A DNA stretch of 64,000 nucleotides. It comes from Sphingobacterium sp. GTDB taxonomy: Bacteria > Bacteroidota > Bacteroidia > Sphingobacteriales > Sphingobacteriaceae. A program made the position numbers and the translations under genes. A model generated the notes under the pieces. It saw only the letters and a list, made by a program, of their open reading frames with translations. It ran no database searches and had not been told where the DNA came from. Location: NCBI GenBank assembly GCA_022712315.1, contig JALAGS010000069.1, positions 46,511 through 110,510 on the forward strand, read 5' to 3'. Shown piece by piece: positions 49,195 to 61,220 of this stretch; the first letter of the stretch is position 1; every line of letters starts with the position of its first letter.

Positions 49195-49226
49195 AAAAAG
49201 CCCGATCATGTATCGGGCTTTTTTTG
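49195..49226 (+). terminator. Strong intrinsic terminator hairpin
   Basis: AAAAAGCCCGATCATGTATCGGGCTTTTTTT. Confidence 0.85.
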
Positions 49227-49377
49227 GAATAAGAAAGGTTCTTTTTCTCATCGCACAAATGTCGATGTGCACAGGTCGGTTGGGGAAGTATCGACGGCAG
49301 TCGTTACAATATAATCTGGAAATCGTGTTGTTTTCTACTTTGAAATGTGTTGTTTTTATAAATTATTTATTTTTATT

Positions 49378-49396
49378 ATTTAGATTAATTAAAAAT
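49378..49396 (+). promoter_or_regulatory. Candidate iron-regulator (Fur-like) operator upstream of PepSY/TonB module
   Basis: ATTTAGATTAATTAAAAAT, imperfect dyad 24 nt before the ATG at 49421. Confidence 0.35.
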
Positions 49397-49420
49397 AATA
49401 CATTTGCAAAAAAACTACTG

Positions 49421-50539
49421 ATGAAATTGAAAGCTGCAAAACGTTGGTTCAACTGGCATAAATGGACAAGTCTGATTTGTACCATTTTTCTTCTTTATCT
49501 CTGTATCACGGGGCTACCATTGATCTTTCATGAAGAGATCAAACATTTATTAGAGGAAAATAAAAAAGCTGTAATCACAGAACAGAAATTGAGTCTCGAT
49601 AAGCTGGCAGAAATTGCGGCATCCAGGTATCCTGGAGAACAGGTGCGGTATGCGTTTTGGGATGAAAATGAAAAGAATAAGGTGCTTTTTGATGTCGTGG
49701 ACAAACCTGATGCACCTTATGAAAAAAGTAAGTATCTGGTCCTCAATGAGTATACAGGTGAGGTGCTTGGAGCTCCCAAGACCGATGGCCTGATGAATAT
49801 TATCCTTAAACTGCATACCGATATGTTTTTGGGCATCCCCGGCAAATTGTTCCTCGGTTTGATGGGGATATTATTTATGATTTCTATTGTCTCCGGGATT
49901 GTGCTTTATGGACCCATTATGAAAAAGTATGATTTTGGAATGGTACGGAAGAATCGATCCAAAAGACTGCAGTGGTTGGATACACACAATTTATTGGGTA
50001 TCGCTTTAACCGCATGGATGGTGGTGGTTGGTTTTACAGGCATCATCAATACGCTCTCTGATGTGATCCTCGGTCTCTGGCAGCAGGGGCAGCTGGCCGA
50101 AATGACTGCACCTTATAAAAATCAAGATCCGCTCAGGGGTAATTATAGTTCATTGGAGCAGGCGAAGTTAGCAGCTGAAAACAAAGTGAAAGACATGAAA
50201 GCTGCGGTCATAGCCCATCCAGGTACACCTTTTACCAGCAAGCATCATTATGCTGTATTTATGCGCGGCAACACGGAGCTGACATCGAAGTTGCTCAAGC
50301 CAGTTCTGATTGATGCGAAAACCGGATTAGTAACCGATAGCCGGGAAATGCCCTGGTATGTCAATACGCTTTTCCTTTCCGAACCGCTGCATTTTGGGAA
50401 TTATGGTGGTCCGGTTCTTAAAATTGTTTGGGCTGTGTTTGATATTTTCACGATTCTCGTTTTGGTAACGGGACTCTACCTATGGATTGCCCGGCGACGT
50501 GCAGAAAAACAGCAGCTATTTATCGCAAAAGAATCTTAA
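49421..50539 (+). CDS. PepSY-associated TM helix domain protein (iron-regulated membrane protein type)
   Basis: Start at MKLKAAKRWFNWHKWTSLICTIFLLYLCITGLPLIFHEEI. 'LKLHTDMFLGIPGKLFLGLMGILFMISIVSGIVLYGP'. The track's earlier start overlaps the terminator at 49195-49226. Confidence 0.9.
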   Translation: MKLKAAKRWFNWHKWTSLICTIFLLYLCITGLPLIFHEEIKHLLEENKKAVITEQKLSLDKLAEIAASRYPGEQVRYAFWDENEKNKVLFDVVDKPDAPYEKSKYLVLNEYTGEVLGAPKTDGLMNIILKLHTDMFLGIPGKLFLGLMGILFMISIVSGIVLYGPIMKKYDFGMVRKNRSKRLQWLDTHNLLGIALTAWMVVVGFTGIINTLSDVILGLWQQGQLAEMTAPYKNQDPLRGNYSSLEQAKLAAENKVKDMKAAVIAHPGTPFTSKHHYAVFMRGNTELTSKLLKPVLIDAKTGLVTDSREMPWYVNTLFLSEPLHFGNYGGPVLKIVWAVFDIFTILVLVTGLYLWIARRRAEKQQLFIAKES

Positions 50540-50541
50540 CC

Positions 50542-50706
50542 ATGAAAAATACCTTCCTAAAACTTTGGGGCATGCCTATGCTATTGGCAGCTTTATCACT
50601 ATTTGGGCTAATTGCTGCATTATTGGGCGATGGTCTATGGGACTATTTGGGCTGGCTCGCGCTTTCTGTTCCGCTCTTTCTCGTGATTCGACACTATTAC
50701 AAATAA
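50542..50706 (+). CDS. Small (54 aa) two-TM hypothetical protein between PepSY and TonB receptor genes
   Basis: MKNTFLKLWGMPMLLAALSLFGLIAALLGDGLWDYLGWLALSVPLFLVIRHYYK. Starts 2 nt after the upstream stop and ends 21 nt before the next ATG. Confidence 0.75.
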   Translation: MKNTFLKLWGMPMLLAALSLFGLIAALLGDGLWDYLGWLALSVPLFLVIRHYYK

Positions 50707-50727
50707 CTACAAATAAATTACCATAAC

Positions 50728-52929
50728 ATGAAGAAGTTGATCTTAAGTGCTTCTGTATTATCGAGTATCGCTGCCTATGGGCAACAAAAGGACACTGTCA
50801 AAATGAATAAAATGGATGAGGTTATCATTAATGCCTACATCAAAAAAGATAGTGAATACACCAATAAAATGCCACTTCGAGCGATTGAAAATCCGCAGGT
50901 CTACTCCTCGATAGACCGTGTCGCTTTAGAAAACCAAATGATTTTTACCGTCGATGAGGCCTATCGAAATGTGACTGGTTTGCAAAAAATGTGGAATGCA
51001 ACTGGGCGTGCGGGTGATGGTGGAGCGTATGTCAACCTGCGCGGATTTATCTCAAATAATTCGCTGAGAAATGGTTTGGTAGCGCCAGTAAGTGGTACCG
51101 TAGACGCCGTGAATATCGAAAAAATAGAGGTGTTAAAAGGGCCGTCAGCTACCTTATACGGAAGTAATGTGACTTCTTATGGAGGTGTGATCAATCGTGT
51201 CACCAAGAAGCCTTACGATAGTCTAGCTGGAAATGTTTTGGTCTCGGCCGGAAGATATGATTATTATCGTGCACAAGCCGATCTCAATGCCCCCTTGACA
51301 AAGGACAAAAGTCTTTTGTTCCGTGTTAACACGGCCTATACAACAGAAGGGAATTTTCAAAATTCCAAGGTGCACAATAAGTATTTTGCATTTACCCCCA
51401 GCCTAACGTGGAAGGTAAATGACAAAGTGGATGTCAACCTCGAATATGAGATGTTTGATAATAAGGCGCAGTCTGAGCAGAACTTCTTTTTTATCGGCCC
51501 CTTGTCCGCTTTTGGTTTTTCGGGAATGAAAGACTTGGAGAAAGCCGGCCTTGATTACAAACAGCCGTATGTGGGATCGGGTTTATACAATACAGGCCGT
51601 ACGCGTAACTTGTTCGGGCAGGTCAATTATAAAATCAATGAACATATCCGGTCGTCAACTTCGGTCAATAGTGCCTATAGCTATTCGAATGGTTTCAACC
51701 CCTATTTCTACATCACCACAAAATCTTACGGTGCTGATCCTAATGACAAGGAAGTTGGTTTATACCGTGGTGACCAGTCCACTGCAGATAGTAAACAACG
51801 TTACCTACAGGTACAGCAAAACTTTAATTTTGACTTTCATATAGGTCGTATGCGTAACCGGACCGTGGTGGGCGGAGATTATTTGCGCACCCGAAATGAT
51901 CAATTCTTTTATTTTGGGGTCATTGACTTCGTGCCGTTTACGGGCGATATGGACTATACAAATTTCAATGCCGACTATGTAACAAATTATTATAATTCAA
52001 TCCGTAATACGCCGGCATGGGATAGCTCAATCTGGCCATTGAAAAATAAATCAAATACGTACAGTGCGTATGTTTCCAATGTGATCACACCTGTACAGGG
52101 CTTAAATTTGATGACAGCCATTCGCTATGAAAGTGTTAAATTCAATGGGGGCGTGAAAGGTTCCAATGAAACTCCGGCATATACACAGCGTGCATGGTCG
52201 CCCAAATTAGGCTTGGTTTATGAACTTGTGAAAGAAAAATTGTCTGTGTTTGGGAACTATCAGAATAGCTTTACCAGTAATGGTTATTTTGTTTCCGACA
52301 CGGCTTCCAACCTTTCTCTCTCTGATCCTGAAAAAGCCAATCAGTGGGAGGGAGGATTTAAAGCCGATCTGTGGCATGGAAAAGTCAATGCTACACTTAA
52401 TTACTACAATATCAATGTCAAGAATACCTTACAGACAATTGGTTATACACCGCAGGGAAGAGCGATAGAACAGCAAATGGGAAAGCGTAACAGCAAAGGT
52501 GTTGAACTGGAAGTAAATGCTTATTTGGTTAAAGGTTTTTCATTGATCGCAGGATTGAGCTACAATGACTCCAAATTTACAGAAACGACAGATGTCACTG
52601 TTTTGGGTAAAAGGCCGAATACGGCTTCTTCGCCATGGTTAGCAAATTTCAATGCGACCTATCAGTTTACGGAGGGTAACCTAAAAGGATTTGGCCTGGC
52701 CTTTGGAGGAAATTATGCCAGTGCCAACAAGATTATCAACACGACAAATGGAACCTTTGAATTGCCCAAATATGTAGTCCTCAATGCGAATGTATTCTAT
52801 GATGCGAAGAAATTCAGAGTTGGGGTAAAAGCGGATAACCTGACCAACGAACATTATTGGATCGGTTATACCACAGCCAATGCACAAAAGCTGCTGAATG
52901 TAGCGGGAAGTTTTAGCTATAAGTTTTAA
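50728..52929 (+). CDS. TonB-dependent siderophore receptor
   Basis: Signal peptide, plug 'NIEKIEVLKGPSATLYGSNVTSYGGVINRVTKKP', C-terminal 'VGVKADNLTNEHYWIGYTTANAQKLLNVAGSFSYKF'. Confidence 0.93.
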   Translation: MKKLILSASVLSSIAAYGQQKDTVKMNKMDEVIINAYIKKDSEYTNKMPLRAIENPQVYSSIDRVALENQMIFTVDEAYRNVTGLQKMWNATGRAGDGGAYVNLRGFISNNSLRNGLVAPVSGTVDAVNIEKIEVLKGPSATLYGSNVTSYGGVINRVTKKPYDSLAGNVLVSAGRYDYYRAQADLNAPLTKDKSLLFRVNTAYTTEGNFQNSKVHNKYFAFTPSLTWKVNDKVDVNLEYEMFDNKAQSEQNFFFIGPLSAFGFSGMKDLEKAGLDYKQPYVGSGLYNTGRTRNLFGQVNYKINEHIRSSTSVNSAYSYSNGFNPYFYITTKSYGADPNDKEVGLYRGDQSTADSKQRYLQVQQNFNFDFHIGRMRNRTVVGGDYLRTRNDQFFYFGVIDFVPFTGDMDYTNFNADYVTNYYNSIRNTPAWDSSIWPLKNKSNTYSAYVSNVITPVQGLNLMTAIRYESVKFNGGVKGSNETPAYTQRAWSPKLGLVYELVKEKLSVFGNYQNSFTSNGYFVSDTASNLSLSDPEKANQWEGGFKADLWHGKVNATLNYYNINVKNTLQTIGYTPQGRAIEQQMGKRNSKGVELEVNAYLVKGFSLIAGLSYNDSKFTETTDVTVLGKRPNTASSPWLANFNATYQFTEGNLKGFGLAFGGNYASANKIINTTNGTFELPKYVVLNANVFYDAKKFRVGVKADNLTNEHYWIGYTTANAQKLLNVAGSFSYKF

Positions 52930-53063: not shown

Positions 53064-53750
53064 TTATTTTTTGACAGCTTCCAGCATAAAAAGCCCCTCG
53101 GTTTCAAAAGGAAGTCCGAGAATACGATTTTGGGCATCCATATCGATTTCGATAGCACCAAACCCAACGGTTTCTAATAGTTCGACGTCTTTAGCTGGGC
53201 GTTGGTGTGCGCTGATCTCAAGAGCCGATTTGATGTCATTGATCTGATCGATGGCACCAGACGGACATTCATCGTGCCTTTCGGTACTAAAAACTGTTTT
53301 TCCGAAATCGGCATCCAGATTGATCAGCCGTCCACCGGATTTGAGTACACGTTCCATTTCGCGGTAACATTTTTCAAGGTCAGGGATGGTCCATGTCATC
53401 AATCTGGTGAAGACCAAATCAAAAGTATTGGCCTCAAATTGCAACGTCTGTGCATCCATTACCTGATAATCTACGTTAAGTTCCAGTTCTTGGCTGACGA
53501 GGTTTGCATACTCAATCATTTGTGGGGAGAGGTCAACGGCAGTAACCTCAAAACCCGCTAGGGTCATAATGTTGGCAAAATACCCTGTAGCAGTACCGAC
53601 TTCAAGGACTTTGTTGCCCGTAACCTGGCTACGTACAGACTTAAAGAAGTCAAGCCAGCGTTCGGTCTCCGGACGGGACCAAGCCTCATCCCGTTCCTTG
53701 CGCCAAGAAGCGCTCCGATCATTCCAGTAGGCTGTTATTCTGTTAATCAT
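53064..53750 (-). CDS. Class I SAM-dependent methyltransferase
   Basis: 'VTGNKVLEVGTATGYFANIMTLAGFEVTAVDLSPQMIEYA', 'FDLVFTRLMTWTIPDLEKCYREMERVLKSGGRLINLD'. Confidence 0.92.
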   Translation of the reverse strand: MINRITAYWNDRSASWRKERDEAWSRPETERWLDFFKSVRSQVTGNKVLEVGTATGYFANIMTLAGFEVTAVDLSPQMIEYANLVSQELELNVDYQVMDAQTLQFEANTFDLVFTRLMTWTIPDLEKCYREMERVLKSGGRLINLDADFGKTVFSTERHDECPSGAIDQINDIKSALEISAHQRPAKDVELLETVGFGAIEIDMDAQNRILGLPFETEGLFMLEAVKK

Positions 53751-53812: not shown

Positions 53813-54943
53813 TCATATCTCCAAGCGCCCATTTTGCAGCTTTGTTTTTTGTCGCTTACTGCGCCTAGTCCAAAGGACAAAGCCAGTCAGTGCAAGAAGG
53901 GCGGGAGTCAATCCAATCAAAGCATAAAAAATTCGTAATGCATAACCGCCGAAGGCACCAATGTGGAGCTGGTAAACTGCCCAGGAAATCTTTTTAGATG
54001 AATCGGCTCTGTCGATGTCCAATATACTGAGGCATGCACCGGTCGAAGCGTCAAATGAAAAATGACTTGCTTTTCCGCCAAATAAAGGGAAATAGGTACT
54101 CGAAAGCTGGCCACGTACCAAAATTGGGGAATCGTTGTTCTTTGGGATATTGATGGCAATAGGGTGAAAACCGGGCGACCTCGTTTTGCAATAATCCAAT
54201 AATTTGTCCAAATCTGTTTTTGAAGCAAAAGACCCTTGCACATGCGGGGCGGCGGTCTCTGCGGAAAACAATTCCTGAAAAGCAGGGAGATTCATCCAAA
54301 CTCCGGTAACCAGTAAAACTAAATTGAGCAAAGCAGACCACACACCGACTACGCGATGCCAGGATGAATACAGTCTGCGTCCATTCTTATGAAGCGGTAC
54401 TTTAAATAGCAATACGCTGAGAAGATGTTTTCGATAAACGATTAGGCCAGAAAGAATAGTCAACAACAGCAGTATCCCCAGTGCTGCGACAAAGGCCTGG
54501 CCTAATCGCCCCAGTAAAAAGCTATAATGTAGCGCATATGTCCATCTGAAAAATGAGCTGCTGAGTGTTTCATAATTGCCTTCCCGGAGAATTGCTCCGG
54601 TGTGGGCGTCGACAAATGCAAAGCCTAGATGATTGTCTGCGGGATCATTGATCGTCCGATAGAGCATAAATTCGTACGGTTCATGGGAAGATAAGGGAAA
54701 ATCATGGAGCACAATTTTTTCTAAATCGGGAAAGGCAGTAGCGATAATCCGATAGGCGCTATCGGCAGAAATCACAGTCCCATTGGCTGACCTGTGATAA
54801 ATATCGGGATTTAGCGCGCGATCGAGATCATGGCGAAATAGCAGCACAGCACCTGTCAGGCCTAAGATCAGAAAGAATAACCCTGTGCTCAGTCCGAGGA
54901 ATCCGTGTACGCGGAATGCCCATTTGGTGATTGTTTTCATCAT
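53813..54943 (-). CDS. PepSY-associated TM helix domain protein
   Basis: 'WAFRVHGFLGLSTGLFFLILGLTGAVLLFRHDLDRALNP', 'YALHYSFLLGRLGQAFVAALGILLLLTILSGLIVYRK', 'LYSSWHRVVGVWSALLNLVLLVTGVWMN'. Confidence 0.9.
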   Translation of the reverse strand: MMKTITKWAFRVHGFLGLSTGLFFLILGLTGAVLLFRHDLDRALNPDIYHRSANGTVISADSAYRIIATAFPDLEKIVLHDFPLSSHEPYEFMLYRTINDPADNHLGFAFVDAHTGAILREGNYETLSSSFFRWTYALHYSFLLGRLGQAFVAALGILLLLTILSGLIVYRKHLLSVLLFKVPLHKNGRRLYSSWHRVVGVWSALLNLVLLVTGVWMNLPAFQELFSAETAAPHVQGSFASKTDLDKLLDYCKTRSPGFHPIAINIPKNNDSPILVRGQLSSTYFPLFGGKASHFSFDASTGACLSILDIDRADSSKKISWAVYQLHIGAFGGYALRIFYALIGLTPALLALTGFVLWTRRSKRQKTKLQNGRLEI

Positions 54944-57084
54944 TAGAAATTATAGGAAACATTCATGCGAAATTCGCGTGGGGCATAAGGGACATAGGCA
55001 TAGAGGCCAGTAGGCCGTGTCCAAGCACTTCCATAATTGAACCGGTTGGTGATGTTATTGATAAGTCCGTTGATGGCGATCTTACCATTTGTCCAGCCGA
55101 TACCAGCATCCAATCGAAAGATCGGTGCTAGAGAAGGGATGTCGTCTTGCGGGTAACGTCCAGCTCTACCCGCTTGATATTGATAACCTGCGGATACACT
55201 CATTCCTGTTACTTTTTTGAATGGAAGCCGGTAATTCAGCCAGGTATTTTGTATATGTCGTACCCGGTAGGGGCTTGCTTTGCCAATCAGCGCTGGATTG
55301 GCATCGGCAGAAATATAGCTATCCGTATAGGCATAGTTGATCACTGTATTGAGGCCCGGAACAATTTCACCTTTGAGGTCGAATTCAATTCCTTTGGATG
55401 TCGTCTGGCCGATCTGTGACTGCAGGTTGGTCGCGGGATCGGTTACCAGAATATTGTCTCTCGTGATATGATAAAGCGATAAGGTACTGTTCCATTTGCC
55501 GTCCCACCAGTCCTTTTTTAGACCAAGCTCATAGTTTTTGCCGCGTAGTGGCGAGAATGTTTTGCCATCAGCGCTGAGACCGCTCTGGGGAGTAAACGTA
55601 CGATCATAAAGGGCGTAAGCCGATGCACTTTCTGTCAGCGCATAATTTAAACCCACTCGGGGTGTAATCACCAGATCTGAGACTGTGGAGGGGGTAGGGA
55701 TATCGATATGGCTTGTCGATCGCGTTAGCCGCGCCGCTAAGGTCACATGTAAGCGGTCCTGCAGGAATGCAAGTTCATCCTGGAGATAAAAGGCGACATA
55801 TTTGATCTGCTGCTTGTTGGTCGCAATGCTGTCTAAAGAGCCTGTCTTTTTATTATCATAAAATGGTACTCCATATTGTGGGTTATTGACGTTTAAGGGA
55901 TATAAGGTTGGGTTCGCATTTTTGTCGTTATAACCCGAATAACCCAGTAAAGATTTTCGGTTGCCATCGATACTTGCCAGGATATGATGCGCAAGATTAC
56001 CCGTATTTAATGTACCATTCAAATAGATCTGAACGGAAGTAACATCCGTTGTAAATCGTTCGTAGGTGACACGTCGTTTGATTTCATCGGGACGGTTTTT
56101 ATCGTATGCGAATACAAAAAAATAATTGCCATCCATCTGGCTGTTGGCATAGGCCGTTTTCGCTGTGAGATTCCAATTTCGGCCGATTTTTTTTGTGTAG
56201 GTCAGAAAAGCTGTATGTTCCCGAGCCTTGACGGGGTCTTTTGTGGGATCGGCAATACTAAAATCCCGAGGAAGGGATGCAAATCCGTAGGGTGAAAATA
56301 CCGTGAGCAGGTACTGTAGAAAAGACTGCTGCTGAAAGCTGTATTCTGCAGTCAAAGAAGATGTTGTGTCTATGCTGTAGGTCAGGCTCGGATTGACCAC
56401 AACCTTGTCGTTAAATGCAAAACGCTGAAAAGAGCGGGATTTTTGTCCGACGGCATTGACTCTATATAGCCATTTTTTTTGTTGATCAAAATGGCCATCC
56501 AGATCTGCTCCAACGCGATAGAGGTCCCAGCTGCCTGTCTGAAAGAACACCTGATTGGAAGGTATACCCGTCGGTTTTTTGGTGACGAGGTTGAAGGATC
56601 CCGCTGGATCGCCAATAGCATTCATAAAACCCGAAGGCCCCTTGATAAATTCCAGCCGATCGATCATATTGGCATCTTCGGGCATGGGACCGTAATAGAT
56701 CATGGAAAGATCTACCCCGTTTCGAAGCGTGTTGATACCTGCTCCGCGCATAAAAAGAAAAGGACCATAGAAGTCTGCTGTGTTGTTGCGCATTGCACCG
56801 CTCACATTCCTACTGATGCTTTCGTTGATATTGATGGCCTGCTGGTCGATGATGATACTATGGTCGATTTCCTGGATGTTCTGTGGTAGCCGTAGAAGCG
56901 GTACCTGCAGTTTTAGGGTATTGGAAGCAGCGTCTAATTTGTATTTTCTATAATATTTGGAAGTGACAAGCGCCTCTTCCAGGCGAATACTATCGCGAAG
57001 TGCGGAAGTTGTATCCCGTAAAGGATGTTGAGCATATACGATACTGCCTGATAACACAAGCAATACTGAAAATGAGTATTTCAT
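54943..57084 (-). CDS. TonB-dependent siderophore receptor
   Basis: 'MIDRLEFIKGPSGFMNAIGDPAGSFNLVTKKPTG', siderophore-receptor barrel 'TPQSGLSADGKTFSPLRGKNYELGLKKDWWDGKWNSTLSLYHITRDNILVTDP'. Confidence 0.93.
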   Translation of the reverse strand: MKYSFSVLLVLSGSIVYAQHPLRDTTSALRDSIRLEEALVTSKYYRKYKLDAASNTLKLQVPLLRLPQNIQEIDHSIIIDQQAININESISRNVSGAMRNNTADFYGPFLFMRGAGINTLRNGVDLSMIYYGPMPEDANMIDRLEFIKGPSGFMNAIGDPAGSFNLVTKKPTGIPSNQVFFQTGSWDLYRVGADLDGHFDQQKKWLYRVNAVGQKSRSFQRFAFNDKVVVNPSLTYSIDTTSSLTAEYSFQQQSFLQYLLTVFSPYGFASLPRDFSIADPTKDPVKAREHTAFLTYTKKIGRNWNLTAKTAYANSQMDGNYFFVFAYDKNRPDEIKRRVTYERFTTDVTSVQIYLNGTLNTGNLAHHILASIDGNRKSLLGYSGYNDKNANPTLYPLNVNNPQYGVPFYDNKKTGSLDSIATNKQQIKYVAFYLQDELAFLQDRLHVTLAARLTRSTSHIDIPTPSTVSDLVITPRVGLNYALTESASAYALYDRTFTPQSGLSADGKTFSPLRGKNYELGLKKDWWDGKWNSTLSLYHITRDNILVTDPATNLQSQIGQTTSKGIEFDLKGEIVPGLNTVINYAYTDSYISADANPALIGKASPYRVRHIQNTWLNYRLPFKKVTGMSVSAGYQYQAGRAGRYPQDDIPSLAPIFRLDAGIGWTNGKIAINGLINNITNRFNYGSAWTRPTGLYAYVPYAPREFRMNVSYNF

Positions 57085-57100
57085 GAAATGGTTTTACCTA

Positions 57101-57119
57101 ATTATCAATTTGTCTAAAA
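57101..57119 (-). promoter_or_regulatory. Candidate iron-regulator (Fur-like) operator upstream of the minus-strand TonB receptor
   Basis: Minus strand reads TTTTAGACAAATTGATAAT, sharing the TTTAGA half-site with the 49378-49396 element. Confidence 0.25.
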
Positions 57120-57160
57120 TTATTTATCAATGGATGGATCTTCCATTGAGCAAAGATTAA

Positions 57161-57532
57161 TTAGGCAATAGGGGGACGTAGTAATCTATTTGGATTTCTA
57201 CGGATGGATTTGGAAACACTTATAGGAATGGGAAGTACGGTAATTTCAATCGAAATAGGAGTGAATGAAAACAAAGCATTGGAGTCAACAATATCGTAAA
57301 CCTCAGCTTTAAGCTTGACGCTTGGATTCTGCTTTTCCTTTTCCTGTGCCTTTCTGATCTTTTTCATTAATACGCAGTTACCATTACAATGCAATTGGGG
57401 TTTATCCCGATTTTCGCAGAGGTATTTGGCGATATAGTCTTTATTGGCATAAAAAGCTCCTATCACAATATAACCCCATCCAGCTTGGACGAGCAATGAT
57501 ACGGTCAGAAAATACAGGAGCATTTTTTTCAT
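57161..57532 (-). CDS. Small CxGxC-motif protein, paralogue of 58475-58852
   Basis: 'MKKMLLYFLTVSLLVQAGWGYIVIGAFYANKDYIAKYLCENRDKPQLHCNGNCVLMKKIRKAQEKEKQ'. Signal/TM N-terminus. The track ORF starts at 57568. Confidence 0.7.
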   Translation of the reverse strand: MKKMLLYFLTVSLLVQAGWGYIVIGAFYANKDYIAKYLCENRDKPQLHCNGNCVLMKKIRKAQEKEKQNPSVKLKAEVYDIVDSNALFSFTPISIEITVLPIPISVSKSIRRNPNRLLRPPIA

Positions 57533-57605
57533 CGGGCCAAACTTAGATAAATAGTTTTTTATATGCAATTTAAATTTGGTCGTGCTCTTTTGTCGTCTGT
57601 ATCTG

Positions 57606-58310
57606 CTAGCTGTTTTTTGACTGTTTTAGCTGATCAAATGTTCGGTTATATCGGTCATAAATGACTTTTTCAGATTCAAAATCTGGATTTGGCTTCCAAT
57701 ATTCTTCGACCCGAATTGTATTGTTTTTGATTATGGTATTTGAGCTTATCAACGTTCCTTTTCCGTGGACTTCGTTCATGTTAACGGAGTTTATGGGGAC
57801 AAAGAATTTTTCTAGCATTTTGGGGATTTCGCGAAAACTGATGCAATCCTCGTCGATAATGACCGTTTTGCTTTTTGTGATCAAAGGCAAAAGTACTTTG
57901 GCTATCCAGCGGGGTTGTTTCGACTTGATTTGATCTGCGGGCTGTGTCAGATAGAAACTGAACTGTGCCTTATCGTCGCTGTGGTGGTTGCGGTAGACAA
58001 CGGTTTCGATGGTATTCCAAGGAATAAACTGCGTTGTATTTAGCAGTGGGATTTGATGAGATAGACCTTTGTGATCGGCTGTTACACTTTCCTGTAGCGC
58101 TGTTTGTCGTTCGATCGTTTTCTCAGAAACTCGAAAACCAACTGTTAAACCGTATAGGATAATACCTGGAAAAAGGATAAAAAGTCCTGAAACGAAATAG
58201 GCCCCCACAACTTTGCTGCCATGAATAATCATAAATATGGTCAAACCTATTCCAATGCAAATAAATAGTCCAAGAAATAATTTAATAAATAAAAAAGGGT
58301 TAAATTTCAT
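57606..58310 (-). CDS. Hypothetical membrane protein (two N-terminal TM helices)
   Basis: 'MKFNPFLFIKLFLGLFICIGIGLTIFMIIHGSKVVGAYFVSGLFILFPGIILYGL' followed by a soluble domain. Intact 234-codon ORF with no competing ORF. Confidence 0.7.
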   Translation of the reverse strand: MKFNPFLFIKLFLGLFICIGIGLTIFMIIHGSKVVGAYFVSGLFILFPGIILYGLTVGFRVSEKTIERQTALQESVTADHKGLSHQIPLLNTTQFIPWNTIETVVYRNHHSDDKAQFSFYLTQPADQIKSKQPRWIAKVLLPLITKSKTVIIDEDCISFREIPKMLEKFFVPINSVNMNEVHGKGTLISSNTIIKNNTIRVEEYWKPNPDFESEKVIYDRYNRTFDQLKQSKNS

Positions 58311-58474
58311 TTACTCAAAGCCAGTGGTTTCTAGCTAAATATACTAAAAGTTGTTGGTTTTTATGGAAGCGCTACTCACTTTGAAAAGAGAAGGGCGACA
58401 CAGGCTTGCTACAGAAGGGGCTAAAGTCTTGGGGCAAATAGCAATAATTATTATATTTGTGGCACTGTCGATAC

Positions 58475-58852
58475 ATGAAAGCGAAACAATTGATATGGAT
58501 ACTATTGCCGTTGATGCTCTTGCAGAGCTTCTCGTCGGTGTGGCTATGGACTGTTTTTGAGCTAAATAGAGATTATATCGCTAAGAACGAGTGTATCAAT
58601 CGATTCAACGAAAAGGCACTCTCCTGTCGAGGACAATGTGTGTTGATGAAGAAAATGCGTGAACATGAGGAGAAGGAACAGAAGAACCTCGAATCGCGTA
58701 TAATCGATGTTGTGTTTATCAATAATCAGCAGAATTTTAACCTTGATATCGCTTTTTTTGAAGAAGCAGCTGTAGAAACCCTACTTCCGGAATATCGGGC
58801 AAATTATACCTATACACCAATCTTTTCTATTTTTCACCCACCCTTGGTTTAG
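58475..58852 (+). CDS. Small CxGxC-motif protein, paralogue of 57161-57532
   Basis: 'MKAKQLIWILLPLMLLQSFSSVWLWTVFELNRDYIAKNECINRFNEKALSCRGQCVLMKKMREHEEKEQKN'. Confidence 0.7.
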   Translation: MKAKQLIWILLPLMLLQSFSSVWLWTVFELNRDYIAKNECINRFNEKALSCRGQCVLMKKMREHEEKEQKNLESRIIDVVFINNQQNFNLDIAFFEEAAVETLLPEYRANYTYTPIFSIFHPPLV

Positions 58853-58936
58853 ATCATTTTGTTTTTTAGTACGTGCTATAGGCTTATTGTCTGATAGCCG
58901 GTACTGTCTATTTTCAAAAGTTTTAAATCAATTCAT

Positions 58937-59788
58937 ATGAATATCTATTCCCGTATAGGGACTATCGAGGGATTGTTATACTCTCTATTTGCCTTTTTAA
59001 TTACTTTTTCAATTTCATCATGTACGTCGGATCTTACAAAAAATAGCAGGGATGAAGCAGATCTTATTCCGCCAAAAGAGTCTGATCTGGTCCGCATAAC
59101 GGATACGACCTGGCGTGACAACAGCTATACCGTATACGCAGATGCCAAACTCAACAATAAATATCACACTGTTTACCTCCATGTACAAGATAAGTCCGGA
59201 AATCCGATCAATGACAAAACCTTAGATTTCTATCCCGAAATGAGTATGGGACGCATGAAGCATGGTGGGCCCTACGAACATCCTCTTGCACTCGGTGATG
59301 GATGGTATAGAAGCCCTATGGTTTTTATTATGGCGGATATCCCGCAAATGGGAATAGGCTGGCAACTGCATACCATACGTAGTCATGAGGGGAAAAAAGA
59401 CACATTGGCAATTAAGATTCCAGTTACAGCGGCAGCAAGCATGCGCACCATGAGCTCAGGCACAAGAGACGATAGCCGTGTATTTATATCTTGTTTATTG
59501 CCCGACAGCGTAAAACACGGAAAGCATCAGATTCAATTTTTAATGAATAAAATGGATGGACATCATTTTCCGGTACTGGATAATTATGTCATTAAATTAA
59601 AAACCAACATGCTGTCCATGGGCCATGGTTCTTCGGATAACATAGCCGCGCAGAGCATGGGGCGTGGTTATTATGAGGGTACCGTTAATTTTTCCATGGC
59701 TGGTTCTTGGGAAGTTATTGTCGAACTATGGAAAGATGGCAAAAAGGCAAATCAAGATGATATCAAATATCGCGTACAAGTCATTTAG
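58937..59788 (+). CDS. Lipoprotein with FixH/YtkA-like Met/His-rich domain
   Basis: 'ITFSISSCTSDLTKN', 'LDFYPEMSMGRMKHGGPYEHPLALGDGWYRSPMVFIMADIPQMGIGWQLHTI', second 'VIKLKTNMLSMGHGSS...GYYEGTVNFSMAGSWEVIVELWKDGKK'. Confidence 0.6.
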   Translation: MNIYSRIGTIEGLLYSLFAFLITFSISSCTSDLTKNSRDEADLIPPKESDLVRITDTTWRDNSYTVYADAKLNNKYHTVYLHVQDKSGNPINDKTLDFYPEMSMGRMKHGGPYEHPLALGDGWYRSPMVFIMADIPQMGIGWQLHTIRSHEGKKDTLAIKIPVTAAASMRTMSSGTRDDSRVFISCLLPDSVKHGKHQIQFLMNKMDGHHFPVLDNYVIKLKTNMLSMGHGSSDNIAAQSMGRGYYEGTVNFSMAGSWEVIVELWKDGKKANQDDIKYRVQVI

Positions 59789-59831: not shown

Positions 59832-60323
59832 ATGAAAAAGAGAATCAACGTAATCCTAGCCTCTTTCGGTTTTGCGGCTATCCTGGCTTGTGGCGGACAT
59901 GGGGATACAAAATCCAACAAAGAAAATAGCACGCCGCAGCCTGCAGTAGCAGAGCCAGCAGCCATGCTGGATTATAAGACCGAAGGATCTAAAGGAGTGG
60001 GGAGCATTACTTCCTTTGAACACAAACCTTTTGATGCAGCGATGGCAAATAAAGGGGTAGAGTTATTTGTGTCAAAATGTGCTATGTGCCATAGTTTTGA
60101 CCGGACTTTGGTGGGCCCGTCATTGGATGCTGTGGTCAAACGTCGTACACCGGAGTGGATTATGAACATGATGCTGGATCCGGCAACTATGTTAGAGAAG
60201 GATGCTGATGCGAAAGCACTTAGTAAGGAATACGGCTCGCCAATGATTAGTCTGGGCCTGAAGCAAGATGAGGCACGTGCGATTTTAGAGTATCTGCGCG
60301 AACGCAATAGCATAGCAAAATAG
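59832..60323 (+). CDS. Class I cytochrome c (lipoprotein)
   Basis: Lipobox 'AAILACGGHG', haem motif CAMCH in 'ELFVSKCAMCHSFDRTLVGPSLDAVVKRRTPEWIMNMMLDPATML', distal Met in 'YGSPMISLGL'. Confidence 0.9.
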   Translation: MKKRINVILASFGFAAILACGGHGDTKSNKENSTPQPAVAEPAAMLDYKTEGSKGVGSITSFEHKPFDAAMANKGVELFVSKCAMCHSFDRTLVGPSLDAVVKRRTPEWIMNMMLDPATMLEKDADAKALSKEYGSPMISLGLKQDEARAILEYLRERNSIAK

Positions 60324-60353: not shown

Positions 60354-61220
60354 ATGGTTATACGAAAAGAGAAATTAGATTTTCTAAAATTAGAAGATAT
60401 TGATTCCACTTCGCAAGGAATCGTTATTATGCCTATAATGGATTTTATACATGCTAAAGCTAATCAGAATACGCTGCATATACGCTCGTTTTATAGCCTC
60501 TTGTTTGTCCAAAGTGGCGAATTGTCTATGGTTGTTGATCAACATATACATGTTGTAGGTGCTCATGACCTGATCAGCATCAATTCAGATGCTGTATGCA
60601 GTTTTCAGTCGCATACTAACGTAGAAGGCTACATTGTCCTATTTACGGCATCTTTTTTTATGCAACGGCATCCGACTGATGTGATGCATTATTTTCATTT
60701 TTTGAAGAGTAGATGTATATATGCTTTTGTGCTCTCGGAAGAAGAAAGGACGAGTTGTTTGGAAGTCGTAAACCTCATGCTGACGGCATATAATTCATTT
60801 AAATTGAGTGCTAAGGATGTATTGAAACGCTATTTGTTTATGCTTGTACAGATGCTGGGGCGGTATCTCGGAGTCGAGGGAGTCGCTGCACAGATGGATG
60901 AAGGAGACGATAAAATCCGAAGCTTCGAAATGCTGGTCGATAACTATTATGCTCAACAGCGTTACCCTTCATTTTATGCAGGGCAATTAAATATTTCGAT
61001 CAATTATCTCAATCGGATCTGCCGGGAAAAGAGAGAAGCAAGCTGTGGTACGATTATCCGTGGACGTATTTTACTGGAGGCAGAGCGTTTGCTTTACCAT
61101 ACTTTTAAAACAGTAAAAGAAATTGCTTTTGAACTCGGATTTGAAAATGTACCTTATTTTAGCACATTTTTTAAGGCAAATAAAGGAATGAGTCCCGAAG
61201 AATACCGGAAGAATCTGTGA
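60354..61220 (+). CDS. AraC-family transcriptional regulator
   Basis: 'SFYSLLFVQSGELSMVVDQHIHVVGAHDLISIN' sensor domain, HTH 'VKEIAFELGFENVPYFSTFFKANKGMSPEEYRKNL'. Confidence 0.92.
   Translation: MVIRKEKLDFLKLEDIDSTSQGIVIMPIMDFIHAKANQNTLHIRSFYSLLFVQSGELSMVVDQHIHVVGAHDLISINSDAVCSFQSHTNVEGYIVLFTASFFMQRHPTDVMHYFHFLKSRCIYAFVLSEEERTSCLEVVNLMLTAYNSFKLSAKDVLKRYLFMLVQMLGRYLGVEGVAAQMDEGDDKIRSFEMLVDNYYAQQRYPSFYAGQLNISINYLNRICREKREASCGTIIRGRILLEAERLLYHTFKTVKEIAFELGFENVPYFSTFFKANKGMSPEEYRKNL

Follow-up and report, generated by a model that had tools for sequence, protein, structure and literature searches.

Paired small ORFs in a Sphingobacterium locus as probable copper-sensing leader peptides

Two paralogous small ORFs and their relatives

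The window (the whole stretch of Sphingobacterium sp. DNA that was analyzed, 64,000 nucleotides) contains two small ORFs on opposite strands, designated leader 1 and leader 2 (Table 1). These ORFs are paralogues (BLASTP, 39% over 84 amino acids, E 2e-16), and both carry C-x9-CxGxC and a terminal PP. A sequence-only reading of the locus had already paired them by a shared cysteine motif and a PP-containing tail; the motif (here N/K/R-DYIAK-x2-C-x-NR ... C-x-G-x-C-VLMKK) and the PP tail are indeed present in each ORF. Profile searches of the window proteins returned no Pfam or NCBIfam match for either leader, and we found no solved structure related to them by sequence. Scans for sigma-70 promoters and terminators across the window gave matches at chance level only.

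The flanking genes are those that the same reading described: a TonB receptor next to leader 1, and a YtkA-like lipoprotein and a cytochrome c after leader 2. The receptor scores 220 bits against TIGR01783, under the cut-off of 223.5, and because it scores as a siderophore type its ligand is uncertain. An ORF between the two leaders (57606-58310, codirectional with leader 1) had been called a hypothetical membrane protein; the ORF is there, but its STM3941-like match is weak and below cut-off, and it is a singleton in neighborhood clustering rather than a conserved partner of the leaders. A SAM-dependent methyltransferase gene (53064-53750), also a singleton in neighborhood clustering, lies directly 3' of the receptor and PepSY_TM genes. 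Elsewhere in the window, another PepSY_TM gene with a TonB receptor gene after it (49208-52929, plus strand) has no leader family member in front of it.

Table 1. Positions of the two candidate leaders, their parts and the adjacent genes in the window
Feature	Position	Strand	Description or basis
Leader ORF 1	57161..57532	-	123 aa; N-terminal hydrophobic export/anchor segment, C39, C49-x-G-x-C53, spacer, R-P-P-I-A-stop
Putative sensor segment, leader 1 (C39 to CxGxC, residues 39-53)	57374..57418	-	C, C, G, C invariant phylum-wide
PP codons, leader 1 (residues 120-121; 66 residues past CxGxC)	57170..57175	-	invariant
Predicted stop-to-start stem, leader 1	57094..57168	-	fold z -3.3; inner hairpin between arms
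TonB-dependent receptor, siderophore-receptor-like; presumed target of leader 1	54943..57084	-	TIGR01783, Pfam plug + barrel
PepSY_TM protein; second gene, presumed leader-1 operon	53813..54943	-	PF03929, E 1.8e-57
Leader ORF 2	58475..58852	+	125 aa; export/anchor segment, C40, C51-x-G-x-C55, spacer, F-H-P-P-L-V-stop
Putative sensor segment, leader 2 (C40 to CxGxC, residues 40-55)	58592..58639	+	motif conservation
PP codons, leader 2 (residues 122-123)	58838..58843	+	motif conservation
Predicted stop-to-start stem, leader 2	58844..58931	+	fold z -5.0; inner hairpin 58867-58906
YtkA-like lipoprotein; presumed target of leader 2	58937..59788	+	PF13115, E 9.6e-14
c-type cytochrome; operon of YtkA-like lipoprotein	59832..60323	+	PF00034, E 1.9e-8
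AraC-type regulator	60354..61220	+	PF12833

Similarity is not restricted to this pair. The genome encodes a third copy (G000:C221), 75% identical to leader 2, which heads an operon in the order leader, YtkA, TonB receptor, MbnP, and MbnH; this operon holds the sole MbnP gene of the genome. Relatives of the leaders are present in 92 of 94 genomes of the genus, 174 of 201 of the family, and 147 of 396 of the Bacteroidota, with named loci in Sphingobacterium, Olivibacter, Parapedobacter, Chitinophaga, Cyclobacterium, Terrimonas, and Saprospiraceae.

Invariant motifs at a fixed distance, next to copper genes

We described the anatomy of the family from 129 distinct members drawn from 101 neighborhoods. 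All 129 carry CxGxC and a C-terminal PP, separated by 66 residues (SD 1.6, range 62-71) and followed by 1 to 19 further residues (2 to 5 in nearly all members). Phenylalanine occupies position -2 relative to PP in 107 members and H, R, or K occupies position -1 in 109; the usual form is F-[H/R/K]-PP. One relative with a longer tail (L204) still has PP at the usual place, and among the 1,305 other proteins of the same loci only 15 have PP within their last 10 residues. In a phylum-wide alignment of 47 sequences, the only invariant columns are C40, C51, G53, C55, P122, and P123. The cysteines picked out by the sequence-only reading are therefore conserved among homologues, as are the glycine and both prolines of the PP tail, an element which that reading reported without giving it a role.

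The spacer between the two motifs has near-maximal entropy (3.4-4.0 bits in most columns, versus zero at the C, G, C, P, and P positions), with weak aromatic preferences at -7, -11, and -15 from PP. AlphaFold places an N-terminal helix and a helix past CxGxC, in a model (mean pLDDT 59, pTM 0.25) too weak for a fold search, and assigns no confident structure to spacer residues 75-117 (pLDDT < 50). For close pairs of sequences, dN/dS is 0.04 in the Cys segment, 0.02 in the PP segment, 0.16 in the spacer, and 0.5 in the tail, a pattern which indicates that the leader ORF is translated and under selection, chiefly at its two motifs.

Neighborhoods were picked by leader matches alone, and the gene calls within them are crude ORF calls. 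The next gene is codirectional for 123 of 129 members, compared with 783 of 1,103 controls (Fisher p 3e-11), and the median gap to it is 108 nt versus 35 nt in controls (p 1e-18); gaps under 10 nt are found for no member but for 31% of controls. This next gene encodes a TonB receptor (38 members), MbnP (32), a YtkA-like lipoprotein (20), another leader (10), an AraC regulator (8), a 316-residue protein with an N-terminal CxxCGC (7), or a YHS protein (4). Neighbor families were assigned by profile as MbnP (PF20243), SCO1 (PF02630), YtkA (PF13115), and, below cut-off, MbnH (TIGR04039); the TonB-copper model TIGR01778 is the best model for one receptor, yet also scores below cut-off. A YtkA-like lipoprotein adjoins family members in 20 of the 101 loci, at least one TonB-, MbnP-, MbnH-, YtkA-, or SCO-type gene is present in 99 of 108 leader-bearing operon-like runs, and a leader lies within 10 kb upstream, on the same strand, of 118 of the 122 MbnP genes in the genus. 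These neighborhood statistics tie the leaders to copper acquisition genes (MbnP, MbnH, SCO, YtkA, and TonB-copper).

Two or more leaders occur in 21 of the 108 runs. One such operon (L153) reads leader-MbnP-MbnH-x-leader-TonB-PepSY, where x is a further gene; here and at L152, L103, and L151, the placement of at least two leaders before different segments suggests that the segments are tuned separately. The 316-residue C-x2-CGC protein (cluster 4; e.g., L113:13008-13955 and L097:4430-5371) is encoded in 40 of the 108 leader operons, often after MbnH, and may be a partner of MbnP/MbnH in the outer membrane; a single representative was scanned and matched nothing in Pfam or NCBIfam.

Pairing between the codons after PP and the next start

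In both window copies, the codons after PP, together with the stop codon, are complementary to the stretch directly upstream of the next gene's start. The arms of the predicted leader 1 stem are 57158-57168 (last codons and stop) and 57094-57104, directly 5' of the TonB receptor ATG (57084), and those of leader 2 are 58844-58853 (Leu-Val-stop) and 58922-58931, directly 5' of the YtkA-like ATG (58937). Pairing in each copy exceeds all 40 shuffles. Across 72 gap-limited members the pairing score is 0.333 versus 0.168 in dinucleotide shuffles (p 3e-6), whereas 231 control gene pairs equal their own shuffles (p 0.67). The difference holds in a non-redundant set (p 4e-9; strong pairing in 38% versus 4%), and pairing is seen for TonB, MbnP, YtkA, and AraC targets alike. 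Its profile is at control level from -5 to 0, rises to 4 to 5 times control from +1 to +18 nt after PP, and returns to control past +24. Judging from the usual ribosome footprint, the +1 to +18 interval would correspond approximately to the mRNA covered or melted by a ribosome arrested at PP. Blocking the PP region in silico raises the predicted accessibility of the start from 0.40 to 0.70 for leader 2 and from 0.39 to 0.57 for the other window copy, and the gain exceeds that of controls family-wide (p 2e-4).

Pairing at p <= 0.05 was also found in 14 of 47 members of a second locus set, which partly overlaps the first and is not counted as independent. Given the gene starts called here, about 60% of members are without a strong stop-to-start stem, and these may use a different coupling. 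The overall folding energy of intergenic regions after leaders did not differ from that of other intergenic regions. The two alignments used to look for covariation of the stem contained few alignable sequences: one misaligns the start-side arm between subgroups, and the other consists of six near relatives.

The 3' end of the ORFs is, in addition, rich in C and poor in G. In the last 60 nt, C exceeds G in 98% of members but in 28% of control genes (p 2.5e-50), and the rut site of CruR is reported to bear this signature; at fourfold sites the C/G ratio is 1.51 versus 1.00, a modest effect, so that much of the bias derives from amino acid composition. Together with the long gap between leader and target, these figures would fit a copper-sensing leader that acts through Rho-dependent transcription termination, as CruR does, with the stem secondary. 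We regard this as an unlikely arrangement, although the best placed of the alternatives: apart from the compositional origin of much of the C>G bias, the CruR mechanism does not require the post-PP codons to pair with the next start, yet such pairing is found in the leaders, and leaders are also found mid-operon.

A nascent-chain reading and its relation to known systems

Both ORFs are probably copper-sensing leader peptides, in which the nascent chain controls the next gene, rather than working proteins. A spacer of fixed length that is nonetheless unconserved and foldless, an invariant PP, a copper gene next in line, and post-PP codons complementary to the next start all argue for a regulatory nascent peptide. 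From this basis of anatomy, conservation, fixed spacing, gene order, and RNA complementarity we infer the arrest, the metal (copper), the sensing site, and the sign of the response.

In the proposed mechanism, the N-terminal hydrophobic segment would target the nascent chain to the membrane, and translation would halt with the PP codons in the ribosome. The 66-residue spacer would then set CxGxC about 67-71 residues from the P site, beyond the ribosome and, given the general lengths of the tunnel and translocon, probably on the periplasmic face of the Sec translocon. Under copper scarcity the arrest would persist, and the ribosome would cover the codons right after PP and block the stop-to-start stem; the target gene (TonB receptor, YtkA, or MbnP) would then have a free start and copper uptake would be on. 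Cu(I) bound at C...CxGxC may release the arrest through cotranslational folding or pulling, after which the leader would be completed and degraded, the stem would close over the next start, and expression would be off. The on/off sign of this scheme is borrowed by analogy from CruR, and the coupling through a stem from CutF. On the wider proposal our confidence is evenly divided: that the family represents phylum-wide, independently evolved Bacteroidota nascent-chain copper sensors with their own arrest motif (F-[H/R/K]-P-P), a 66-residue ruler which positions the Cys sensor on the translocon's periplasmic side, post-PP codons that serve as one arm of an RNA switch, and, in some operons, at least two leaders for separate segments.

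The sequence-only reading had instead taken the cysteines for a metal- or haem-handling or redox site. The link to metal is borne out by the copper gene neighbors, but a stable periplasmic protein is not the best reading. A rival reading is a membrane-anchored periplasmic copper chaperone or metallation factor that acts as a finished protein, loading for example MbnP, YtkA, or cytochrome oxidase; it would be exported, its invariant C...CxGxC could bind Cu(I), its partnership with copper genes is constant, and CutF was originally interpreted in this way (PMC8456105). We nevertheless think it improbable, as it does not account for why PP is invariant and its distance fixed, why the spacer is near random with no predicted fold, why the ORF stands in front of the regulated gene, or why the RNA segments are complementary. 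Least probable is the view that leaders built in this way respond not to copper but to haem, zinc, redox state, or export itself. In its favor, the gene after leader 1 encodes a siderophore-type receptor and three cysteines could be redox active; against it, the downstream genes are mostly copper related, the CxxC and CxxxC motifs of CruR and CutF act in the copper response, and export sensing alone would not need invariant cysteines.

A limited literature search returned no dedicated copper-scarcity control of the Bacteroidota MbnP/MbnH/TonB copper uptake operons and no experimental work on such a leader in this phylum. Copper leaders are already known from a few Proteobacteria (CruR and CutF), and the leaders described here are most likely a separate family of this design across the Bacteroidota. 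If the copper-sensing reading is correct, copper-scarcity control would come from an unannotated small ORF that precedes almost all MbnP genes of the genus, nascent-peptide metal sensing would reach another phylum through a separate protein family, and the leaders would offer both a new arrest motif and, for translocon-exposed sensing, a ruler that can be measured. Such ORFs should accordingly not be annotated as chaperones or membrane proteins.

CruR of Bordetella pertussis (bp2923, DUF2946/PF11162) is encoded in the operon cruR-bfrG-bp2921 (PMC9426467). Like the leaders, it is a small exported ORF with a Cys motif, conserved spacing, a PP motif three residues from its end, and a long gap, with a TonB receptor and then a PepSY_TM gene behind it, the order seen after leader 1 (PMC9426467); elsewhere its operons include SCO and MbnPH-like genes. 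Copper relieves the CruR arrest, and the uptake genes are shut off. The two families differ in that CruR carries CXXC where the leaders have C-x9-CxGxC, RAPP where they have F[HRK]PP, and a Cys-to-PP spacing of 45 rather than 66 residues; CruR also acts through Rho and occurs mostly in Proteobacteria. None of 47 diverse leader family members matches PF11162 at E <= 0.1, no homology to CruR was detected, and the genome has no PF11162 match.

CutF of Rhodobacter capsulatus (PMC8456105, PMC9973294) is likewise exported and combines a Cys motif with a C-terminal proline motif; slowing of the ribosome opens an RNA stem in which the start of the following gene is hidden, an arrangement predicted here as well, though not in every member. 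Judged from C73 and the terminal prolines, about 40 residues separate its CxxxC from the proline motif, compared with 66 here, and CutF governs a multicopper oxidase that copper switches on. In a similarity network of CutF-like proteins (list D, 29 clusters), about 19% of 5,334 proteins are from Bacteroidota, which the main text of that source counts without a family-level description (PMC9973294); the leader family may be among them.

RAPP-type arrest peptides, SecM, and ApdA/ApdP resemble the leaders in their C-terminal PP arrest motif, export signal, variable upstream region, and control of the next gene (PMC10951233, PMC10987492, PMC12992588). These peptides monitor export or localization, whereas the leaders have no R-A dipeptide and carry an invariant Cys sensor. 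HYC_CC_PP (NCBIfam NF047658) is also a small exported Bacteroidota Cys protein with PP near its end; its sequence and Cys pattern are unlike those of the leaders, and none of the 47 members matches the model. In the HYC_CC_PP protein of this genome (G000:C125:19561-19947; see also L274:2927-3466), PP lies about 11 residues from the stop, and 249 nt past the gene comes a TonB receptor whose N-terminus carries an HMA-like CxxC domain; HYC_CC_PP probably makes up another leader family of this type.

The features of copper-responsive leaders found in the present family are a small, exported, codirectional ORF, copper genes next to it, a long gap, and a fixed Cys-to-PP distance. If our reading is correct, a separate protein family of this kind suggests convergence with CruR and CutF.
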